A stretch of 64,000 nt of DNA from Jiangella alba. GTDB taxonomy: Bacteria > Actinomycetota > Actinomycetes > Jiangellales > Jiangellaceae. The stretch is from positions 3,199,722 to 3,263,721 of the forward strand of contig NZ_FNUC01000004.1 of NCBI RefSeq assembly GCF_900106035.1, in the 5' to 3' direction. Below the pieces are notes generated by a model, which saw nothing but the letters and a program-made list of their open reading frames with translations, ran no database searches and was not told the DNA's origin. Positions 2,619 to 30,289 of this stretch are shown piece by piece. A program made the translations under genes and the position numbers. Within the stretch, counting starts at the first letter, position 1, and the number at the start of each line of letters is the position of its first letter.

Positions 2619-2744
2619 GTCCCCCTGCTGCCCATTTCTTAGCCGCGCACGCGCGCCTCGAGCGGACTCGTGGGGCGCTTCGCGCGACGACGACCGCTTG
2701 ACCCGCACGCACGCGGTCTAAGAACTGGCAGCTATCAGGGGGAC
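2619..2744 (-). repeat. 126-bp near-palindromic element, copy A
   Basis: Bounded by GTCCCCCTG on the left and CAGGGGGAC on the right. Inside, successive blocks pair with each other (CTGCCC with GGCAG, CTTAG with CTAAG, CGCTTGACC with CCTCGAGCGG less one mismatch), so the whole element is one long imperfect hairpin around a GCGCTTCGCGCG centre. It is inverted relative to copies B (2869-2996) and C (29645-29770). The similarity to copy C continues beyond the hairpin to about 2817. No open reading frame or target duplication is evident. Confidence 0.85.
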
Positions 2745-2868
2745 GGGGGAAGTGCGGGCACAGCCCGCCCCGTCCACCGTCCGCCGTCGGCCGTCGGCCG
2801 CTGGCCCCGGGGCGACTCGGCGAAGGGGGCGCGTGCCGCGGTGGCCGGGGCGTGCCCAGACTTTCCCC
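2745..2868. repeat. Spacer between repeat copies, sharing the flank of copy C
   Basis: Bases 2745-2817 match the left flank of the distant copy C (29581-29644) in inverted orientation, for example AAGTGCGGGCACAGCCCGCC and CTGGCCCCGGGGCGACT. The repeated unit in copies A and C is therefore nearer 190 bp than 126. The part nearest copy B shares only the TTTCCCC and GTGCCC portions. I see no gene here. Confidence 0.6.
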
Positions 2869-2996
2869 GTCCCCCTGATAGGTGCCCGTTCTTAGGTCGG
2901 GAGTGCGCGGGTCAAGCGGTCACCCATCGCGCGAAGCGCCAATCCGGTCCGCTTGAGGCGCGTGCTCACGGCTAAGAGAATGGGCGCCAGGGGGAC
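2869..2996 (+). repeat. 128-bp near-palindromic element, copy B
   Basis: Same terminal GTCCCCCTG / CAGGGGGAC repeats, same inner GGTCAAGCGGT / TCCGCTTGAGG arms and GCGCGAAGCGC centre as copies A and C, with several substitutions, some of them on both arms. It lies head-to-head with copy A, 124 bases away, just upstream of the heat-shock promoter of hrcA. It may act as a transcription barrier or be a mobile relic. Confidence 0.85.
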
Positions 2997-7636: not shown

Positions 7637-7730
7637 ATACCCCTACTGACGCGTTGCCGGCGGCGCCGGTTTACCGATGCGCGCCCAACCGTAGGGGATC
7701 GTGCCGGTGATCTTCAGCCGAAACGGGCAG

Positions 7731-7884
7731 TCGGCGGACCTCGTCGCCGGTGATGAGATCGGGGTTGGCGGTGAGGAACGCCTCCATGTCGTCCCCGGGT
7801 GACTTGTGCGGTCAGAGCGGTCAGCGGACCTCGTCGCCGGTGATGAGATCGGGGTTGGCGGTGAGGAACGCCTCCATGTCGTCC
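7731..7884. repeat. 64-bp direct duplication of the LCP gene 3' end
   Basis: Bases 7821-7884, which encode the last codons and stop of the LCP gene, recur at 7731-7794 with a single mismatch, exactly 90 bases apart. The distal copy has lost the stop (TGA to CGA) and is not translated because the proximal copy ends first. It looks like a local tandem duplication followed by decay of the intervening 26 bases. The remaining DNA between 7637 and 7730 holds the upstream region of the sigma operon. Confidence 0.9.
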
Positions 7885-8891
7885 TCGGCCAGCGCAGTCC
7901 AGAGCTGGCCGGCGCGTTCCTCGTCGTAGACGACGATGCTCTGCGCCCCGGCGGTGCCGGTGCCGTCGGTGGGCACCGTCAGGAACGTCATGTCGTCGGC
8001 GCGCAGGTTGCGCATGGACAGCGCGAGGTCGACCATGCCGAACGCGCTGAGCTCCTCGTCGACCCGCGCGGCCTGGCCGATGGCGCCCGCGACGCCGTTG
8101 ACCTTGCCGGGGTCGGTCAGCGTGCCGGACGAGATCAGCTCGTTCATCAGCGCGCGGAGGAAGTTCTGCTGCCGCTTGACGCGGTCGAAGTCGCCGCCGG
8201 GGAGGTCCTTGCGGTCGCGGACGTACTGCAGCGCCTGCTCGCCGGTCAGCGTGTGGGTGCCGGCCGGGATCGGGTCGTCGCCGTCGGCCAGCGGGGTCTC
8301 CTCGTCGAACGTCATGGTGACGCCGCCCAGCTCGTCGGTGAGCGCCTGGAAGCCGTTCCAGTCGATCAGCGCGAGGTGGTCGACGCGGATGCCGGTGAGC
8401 TCCTCGATGGTCTGCACGAACAGCGACGGGCCGCCGAACGAGTAGGCCGCGTTGATCTTGTTCTCGCCGTGGCCGGGGATCTCGATGTAGGTGTCGCGCG
8501 GGATGGAGACCAGGTAGCCGCGGTCGCGGCCCTCCGGGAAGTGCGCCAGCATGATGGTGTCGGTGCGCGCGGCGCCGGGCTGGTACACGTCGACCTTGTC
8601 CTCGCCGTCGAGCCCGCCCAGCAGGAACGTGATGCTGTCGCCGGGCAGCTCGGCCGGGCGCGCGGTCTCGGGGATGTCGAACGCGTCGGGGATGCGCTCG
8701 ATGTTCGACGACAGCCGGTTCACGAAGTAGAACGCACCGCCGGCCACCGCGAGCAGCAACGCCAGCAGCGTCACCAGCACGATCACCAGGACCTTGCGGT
8801 TGCGGCGGCGCTTGCGCGGCGGCTCGGCCGGTTCGGCCGGCTCGGTCTCGAGGGACGGGTCGGGCTGCGGGTCGCCGGGCGGGTTCGACAT
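7821..8891 (-). CDS. LytR-CpsA-Psr (LCP) family cell-wall glycopolymer ligase
   Basis: Transfers lipid-linked anionic or arabinogalactan-type polymers onto peptidoglycan outside the membrane. The 356-residue protein has an acidic cytoplasmic tail, an RKRRRNRK basic patch, one transmembrane helix (VLVIVLVTLLALLLAVAGGAFYF, about residues 33-55) and an LCP domain with its key residues: TDTIMLAHF, YLVSIPRDTYIEIP, KINAAYSFGG, LTGEQALQYVRDR and DFDRVKRQQNFL. The ATG at 8891 was preferred because longer frames add sequence unrelated to the family. It is divergent from the HIT gene. Its 3' end is duplicated downstream. Confidence 0.93.
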   Translation of the reverse strand: MSNPPGDPQPDPSLETEPAEPAEPPRKRRRNRKVLVIVLVTLLALLLAVAGGAFYFVNRLSSNIERIPDAFDIPETARPAELPGDSITFLLGGLDGEDKVDVYQPGAARTDTIMLAHFPEGRDRGYLVSIPRDTYIEIPGHGENKINAAYSFGGPSLFVQTIEELTGIRVDHLALIDWNGFQALTDELGGVTMTFDEETPLADGDDPIPAGTHTLTGEQALQYVRDRKDLPGGDFDRVKRQQNFLRALMNELISSGTLTDPGKVNGVAGAIGQAARVDEELSAFGMVDLALSMRNLRADDMTFLTVPTDGTGTAGAQSIVVYDEERAGQLWTALAEDDMEAFLTANPDLITGDEVR

Positions 8892-29477: not shown

Positions 29478-29580
29478 GTTGCCGCTTCCGTTCGCCGGGG
29501 AGTGGCAACAACGGGCCGAGTTGATCATGGAGAAGGTCGGCCGTTTCGACGCGATCGAGCCGACTTTCTCCATGATCAAC
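29478..29580. repeat. Two hairpins downstream of lysR, one a 61-bp near-perfect dyad
   Basis: First dyad: GTTGCCGCT (29478-29486) and AGTGGCAAC (29501-29509), one mismatch, a likely lysR terminator. Second: 21-base arms (29520-29540, starting GTTGATCATGGAGAA, and 29560-29580) matching at 20 of 21 positions around a 19-base loop. The second abuts the shared flank of repeat copy C at 29581, so the two repeat families are adjacent. No gene is visible between 29470 and 29794. Confidence 0.75.
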
Positions 29581-29644
29581 AGTCGCCCCGGGGCCAGCTG
29601 GCGGCGGACGGTGGACCGGGGCGGGCTGTGCCCGCACTTCCCCC

Positions 29645-29770
29645 GTCCCCCTGATAGCTGCCCGTTCTTAGACCGCGTGCGTGCGGGTCAAGCGGTCGTC
29701 GTCGCGCGAAGCGCCCATGAGTCCGCTTGAGGCGCGCGTGCGCGGCTGAGAAAATGGGCAGCAGGGGGAC
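29645..29770 (+). repeat. 126-bp near-palindromic element, copy C
   Basis: Third copy of the element described at 2619 and 2869, 27 kb away. The ends are GTCCCCCTG and CAGGGGGAC, with inner pairs GCTGCCC/GGGCAGC and GGTCAAGCGG/CCGCTTGAGG. Bases 29581-29644 upstream also match the flank of copy A. It lies between lysR and a converging minus-strand gene and carries no open frame of its own. Confidence 0.85.
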
Positions 29771-29794: not shown

Positions 29795-30289
29795 CTAGCG
29801 AACGGCCGCACGCGCCGGAGTCCAGATGCGCGACGGCCGGCCGGCGGCGAGGTCGCGGCCGAGCAGCACCTGCACGCGGTACGGCTCCAGGCGCAGTACG
29901 CCGAACGACTCGTGCTCCGCCGCCGGCCAGAACCGGCCCGGCGGGTAGCCGACGCCGCGGGGGCTGCCCTGTTCGTACAGGCGCCACACCCGCCGCTTCG
30001 TCTCGGGGTCGTCCACCCAGGTGGCGGCGGTGTCGAAGGCGACGGTGTCCTGGGCGGCGCTCCAGTAGGAGAACGTCGCGTGCGGGTTCGCGGCCAGGTG
30101 CGCCACCTTCACCGGCGTCGGGAACGTCGCCAGCCAGCCCAGCGGCGCGCCGCCGGCCACCTCCCAGACGGGGATGAGCACCCGCGAGCGGGGCCGGTGC
30201 CGCTGGTCGACCGTGGTCATGGTGGCGTAGACGATGCTGGCGAGGATCCGGTCGACGTCGGGACGGAGGTCGGAGTACGCGGTGGTCAC
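29795..30289 (-). CDS. Pyridoxamine 5'-phosphate oxidase-fold flavin/F420-binding protein
   Basis: A 164-residue split-barrel protein. YATMTTVDQRHRPRSRVLIP and KVAHLAANPHATFSYW are the typical first strands and cofactor loop; the C-terminal FGVLRLEPYRVQVLLG is also usual. Such small proteins bind FMN, F420 or heme and their substrates are rarely known. GTG start at 30289. Followed downstream by repeat copy C; no operon partner. Confidence 0.8.
   Translation of the reverse strand: MTTAYSDLRPDVDRILASIVYATMTTVDQRHRPRSRVLIPVWEVAGGAPLGWLATFPTPVKVAHLAANPHATFSYWSAAQDTVAFDTAATWVDDPETKRRVWRLYEQGSPRGVGYPPGRFWPAAEHESFGVLRLEPYRVQVLLGRDLAAGRPSRIWTPARAAVR

Follow-up and report, generated by a model that had tools for sequence, protein, structure and literature searches.

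Three copies of a near-palindromic element, which we call E, lie in the 64,000-nucleotide window analyzed here (Table 1), which belongs to a Jiangella genome of 7.68 Mb in four contigs. By our own gene calls, which throughout are codon-usage predictions, all three are intergenic, as a sequence-only reading of the window had claimed; that reading had also placed them correctly. Copy C lies between a convergent gene pair, and 24 bp separate its outer end from the stop codon of a gene on the minus strand (29795-30289). By the same gene calls the A-B pair lies between divergent genes, an exception to the usual placement of E; on reading their sequence, these are probably a TetR-like gene and hrcA.

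Table 1. Copies of E and associated features in the window.
Feature	Position	Strand	Remarks
Copy A of E, type 1	2619-2744	minus	left member of the head-to-head pair; outer end 2619; covariance model E-value 5e-27
A-B pair spacer, 124 bp	2745-2868		inner flanks with GGGGGAAGTGCGGGCACAGCCCGC or its diverged counterpart
Copy B of E, type 1	2869-2996	plus	right member of the pair; outer end 2996; covariance model E-value 2e-28
Different dispersed palindrome GTTGATCATGGAGAA..TTCTCCATGATCAAC	29517-29581		intergenic space; in G010, the nearest relative, a pair has its second E copy there
Conserved inner flank of C, GGCGGGCTGTGCCCGCACTTCCCCC region	29617-29644	plus	itself a small hairpin; common to A
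Copy C of E, type 1	29645-29770	plus	single copy; covariance model match

The length of 126 bp given by the sequence-only reading is right for A and C, B being 128 nt long. Pairing along almost the whole length was borne out by RNA minimum free energies of -82.7 (A), -78.3 (B, folded as 2871-2996) and -89.4 kcal/mol (C), with z-scores of -7.4, -6.7 and -10.1 and none of 200 shuffles folding as low. The 60-70 bp of flank said to be common to A and C is roughly right: the two agree at 99% over 100 bp, of which about 28 bp are inner flank, and their outer flanks match at only 81% over 58 bp. Differences falling on both arms do exist, mainly at alignment columns 14/126 and 31-38/101-108, but the example first offered for them (CTAAG against CTGAG) is a one-sided change from A-U to G-U. 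Elsewhere in the window, at 7727-7888, two copies of a 72-bp stretch lie 90 bp apart with 96% identity, the second of them overlapping the 3' end of a predicted minus-strand gene at 7821-8891.

E is not confined to these three copies, its paired positions covary, and the flanks of its copies are not random, as detailed below. BLAST returned 51 matches in the genome and a covariance model about 41 loci, far above chance; the first such model, built from 14 copies, gave 56 matches, of which two were marginal and 13 were repeat hits to a locus on its other strand. Of the 41 loci used for context, 25 are of a second type and the other 16, among them a half copy and a miniature, are related to type 1. 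Type 2, with ends GGCCCCCTGACGCTGC/GCAGCAGGGGGC, differs from type 1 in its arms but has an identical core, GGGTCAAGCGG...CCGCTTGAGGC, and carries a degenerate tandem array on its inner side. In four inner flanks that we read (L100, L101, L108, L119) this is a 60-75-bp tandem array, AGCGGAGCCGGTAGCC..GGCCAGTGAGCGGCCAGCGGA, and its length apparently varies between close relatives. At least four other families of dispersed palindromes occupy Jiangella intergenic spaces, written GTTGATCATGGAGAA.., CCATGATCATCAACCTTTTG.., CTTCGATAGC..GCTATCGAAG and GTTGATCTTGGAGTAA..; we met them in the window (Table 1) and at L327, L328, L335, L094 and L097, sometimes at a gene 3' end that holds E in another species.

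Nine other Jiangella genomes gave at least 40-111 matches with the first model and at least 50-150 with the second, second-strand readings included, and in the closest relative 19 of 27 E loci are common to the window genome. Two further Jiangella genomes, G003 and G005, were empty by the first model, yet carry diverged copies. Outside the genus, a Jiangella-only model found one match (G015, E-value 1.7e-4); adding this sequence brought weak matches in further genomes, and a third model, run on ten genomes of Jiangella and three other genera, matched 1-7 loci each in nine of them. Two genomes left out of that third model, G012 and G016, score 76.7 and 64 bits, and homology with the low-copy relatives is visible by eye in ATAGCTGCC, AATGG and GGGTCAAG...CTTGA. 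The ends are GTCCCCC...GGGGGAC in Jiangella, and some relatives have GTTCCCC...GGGGAAC instead. Judged by these sequence matches, E is a family-wide dispersed repeat of Jiangella and three other genera of its family. Rfam 15 gave no match at the gathering threshold in the window and none at the element in eleven selected loci, and we found no earlier description of the family in Rfam or in an open-access text search.

Pairing in E is maintained by compensatory change, both within Jiangella and across genera. Standard pairs make up 98.5% of pair cells in 40 type 1 copies from Jiangella; 90 cells carry a double change, against 23.3 in shuffles and 10-19 when slid, and the covariation score was reached by none of 500 shuffles. 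An alignment of 24 sequences from four genera, mostly from low-copy genomes, shows two-sided change in 27 of 44 pairs against 13.3 in shuffles, a result slightly weakened because the sequences were fitted to the model and one Jiangella locus was included on both strands. Conservation extends to unpaired bases: almost every Jiangella type 1 copy keeps an ATAG bulge in the left arm, AAT in the right arm and a GG/GG internal loop, and many relatives retain ATAGCTGCC and AATGG.

Such compensatory changes could also arise by template switching between the arms (quasipalindrome correction) acting without selection on an inert and decaying repeat. Arm differences between copies do come in blocks, and miniatures of 44-67 nt (L097:6013-6079, L275:642-686, L276:662-705, L224:2565-2616), which have lost the hairpin tip, kept the base and are still palindromic, indicate slippage at the palindrome. 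Template switching would nevertheless erase asymmetries, yet the ATAG bulge, the AAT, the GG/GG loop, ATAGCTGCC and AATGG all persist, and it predicts neither the strand bias nor the GNA loops described below; we consider it very improbable.

In the loci that we read, adjacent full copies are always arranged head to head (the reverse complement of E, a spacer, then E), and we saw no short-range tandem or tail-to-tail pairs. Spacers are mostly 124-560 bp long, and several species have recurring ones of about 260 bp in either orientation. J. rhizosphaerae carries 16 pair units of about 515 bp, in both orientations, with a common spacer of about 260 bp whose mean identity is 82%. The two ends of these units are side-specific: same-side ends agree at 0.861 and opposite-side ends at 0.817, a difference that none of 2000 permutations matched, which implies that the pair spread as one unit. 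In this one species, then, the data show past spread of an E pair as a single unit. Since pair units within the species differ by about 18%, the dispersal is old.

E avoids genes and favors their 3' ends. All 157 copies lie outside genes, with 82% of the sequence read being coding. The outer end points toward a stop rather than a start in 28 cases against 13 in the window genome and 66 against 26 in relatives. Among outer ends no more than 100 bp from a stop or start, 68 are close to a stop and six to a start. Of 30 pairs, convergent genes flank 18 and divergent genes one. Pair members and orthologous copies are not independent in any of these counts, so p-values for the outer-end placement come out too small. 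In relatives of lower GC we have only an impression that copies stand at gene 3' ends. In related genera (L369-L382) the few copies lie near accessory genes, often with lower GC at third codon positions. A Pfam scan of 30 genes near copies in the low-copy relatives returned a mixed accessory set (Abi_2, AbiEii, PIN, GmrSD, a TrwC relaxase and two transposases), with no recombinase shared near the copies and no consistent partner.

Orthologous sites show the same positions in several states. In four species that lack E the space upstream of hrcA measures about 300-450 bp; three relatives and the window genome, all with E, have about 930-1120 bp there. At site C the convergent stops of G008 are 16 bp apart by our gene calls. 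Across four loci (upstream of hrcA, C and two more), some species have a pair of E, others a lone copy or a miniature, and others a different palindrome family or no element at all; internal-deletion copies occur among the orthologous sites. We saw no target-site duplication or clean empty-site junction at these four loci, where the flanks are too diverged. From sequence comparison, the differences would fit gain, loss and replacement at tolerated sites.

The placement raises the question of whether E works as an RNA hairpin at gene 3' ends, terminating or blocking the transcription of one or both convergent genes, and was once mobile and then retained for this function. The predominance of nearby stops and of convergent gaps would be expected, and other species have different palindromes at the same 3' ends, as if any hairpin sufficed. 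However, selection against insertion into genes or promoters predicts identical placement, A and B lie between divergent genes, the window's convergent gaps are mostly tiny and without an element of this kind, and G001 and G005 have no palindrome at one such 3' end. The gene whose stop faces E, moreover, transcribes the complement of the better-pairing strand, which speaks against a terminator role having shaped the fold. We regard this explanation as unlikely, although a terminator or barrier role may exist alongside mobility.

The two strands of E are not equivalent. On the E strand of type 1, G-U exceed A-C cells by 166 to 30 when pairs are picked from both strands, an excess that comes mostly from four neighboring pairs; symmetric arm alignments gave 301:160 and 75:35. 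Type 2 is ambiguous, with 9:6 in a structure-based count and 20:57, in the opposite direction, in a symmetric one. DNA folding predicts the E strand of three copies to be more stable than its complement (-47.7 against -39.0, -41.0 against -35.7 and -37.4 against -29.4 kcal/mol). C(GNA)G is the best apical hairpin with a three-base loop in 129 of 157 Jiangella copies, on the G-U-rich strand. Low-copy sequences offer a fairer test of the loop, because 80 groups of Jiangella loci were fetched with a pattern requiring CGCGAAGCG; in low-copy genomes, C(GNA)G accounts for 35 of 38 hairpins with a three-base loop (32 of 35 without a doubly counted locus), with all four bases seen at N, against 15 of 728 background hairpins. 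One low-copy Jiangella locus (L361) is predicted to fold into a trefoil with three C(GNA)G hairpins. GNA loops are exceptionally stable in DNA, according to passages of one source (PMC4686876).

These features bear on whether E is instead a family of structured non-coding RNA made from the E strand and amplified in Jiangella. Covariation and conserved unpaired bases in four genera, a strand preference that includes G-U pairs, and few copies in relatives are what such a family would show. Weighing on the other side are at least 40-150 diverged copies per genome with no consistent neighboring gene seen, the absence of an Rfam match, and the arrangement of the pair unit, which sets the two E strands divergently. 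GNA triloops are, besides, far less stabilizing in RNA than in DNA. We think an RNA family improbable. The strand bias and GNA loops point more to a folded single strand of DNA than to RNA or a transcription barrier. Since GNA triloops occur in RNA too, we infer rather than take as proven that the folded form is DNA; its service as the substrate of an enzyme is likewise inferred.

The sequence-only reading had offered four descriptions: a non-autonomous mobile element, a REP-like repeat, a structured RNA or a protein-binding barrier. As descriptions, the first two gain support from the spread of E as a unit, its position between genes and its conserved pairing; membership in the REP/REPIN/RAYT system does not hold, as taken up below. 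We propose that the unit is one quasi-palindrome of about 126 nt, or two head to head around a spacer; that the strand GTCCCCCTGATAG...CAGGGGGAC would form, as single-stranded DNA, a long hairpin whose tip is a C(GNA)G mini-hairpin and whose asymmetric bulges are conserved; and that a putative enzyme supplied in trans would recognize this fold and copy or move the unit, insertions surviving mostly just past stop codons, especially between convergent genes. To the whole reading, a non-autonomous mobile element recognized as a folded single DNA strand and kept at gene 3' ends, we give about an even chance. More tentatively, and with some doubt, we suggest that E represents a new class of mobile or recombination element folding as single-stranded DNA, with C(GNA)G tips, ancestral to Jiangella and at least three sister genera and served by an enzyme outside the Y1/RAYT group.

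If the mobile-element reading is correct, large single-strand hairpins would have spread in a REPIN-like manner in an actinomycete without RAYT, and the implied enzyme could be traced by co-occurrence. The many copies, the graded copy number and the strand and loop signatures would make DNA-level and RNA-level selection on a bacterial repeat separable, and gene 3' ends in soil bacteria of the Jiangella type would be places of rapid hairpin turnover.

Several known systems resemble E in part. REPINs and REPs (PMC3116915, PMC8266576, PMC3733652) are likewise intergenic palindromes of high copy number whose head-to-head pairs spread as a unit, and single-strand processing has been proposed for them, as we do for E. 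Two inverted palindromes spreading as a unit, the mark of a REPIN, are indeed what the 16 J. rhizosphaerae units show. REPs, however, are palindromes 20-40 bp long, tagged at one end by GTAG or CGTC (PMC3733652), whereas E has a hairpin of about 126 nt, symmetric untagged ends (GTCCCCCTG/CAGGGGGAC) and spacers mostly of 124-560 bp. A search for the RAYT Y1 transposase (Y1_Tnp, PF01797) found it in none of 12 Jiangella genomes, the window genome included, and in five of 14 named control genomes; E has no associated transposase. With no Y1 transposase, no GTAG/CGTC tag and far longer hairpins, we reject REPIN/RAYT membership.

MITEs share with E a short, non-coding, multi-copy form with inverted-repeat ends, but each end of an E unit is itself a near-palindrome; we saw no target-site duplication and found no parent transposon, no pair enclosing a gene-sized interval among the loci inspected. 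Intrinsic terminators and BIMEs are, like E, 3'-end hairpins that prefer convergent genes. E differs in having no U-tract (by eye, no T-tract follows either end), in its conserved loop and bulge sequence, and in its absence from most convergent ends in the window. Integron attC sites (PMC3053210, PMC6393395) differ in their RYYYAAC/GTTRRRY ends, which E lacks by eye, and in their cassette arrays, of which we saw none; they too are long imperfect palindromes just after a gene, and they act as folded single-stranded DNA with extrahelical bases and a strong strand preference, the behavior to which we liken that proposed for E.
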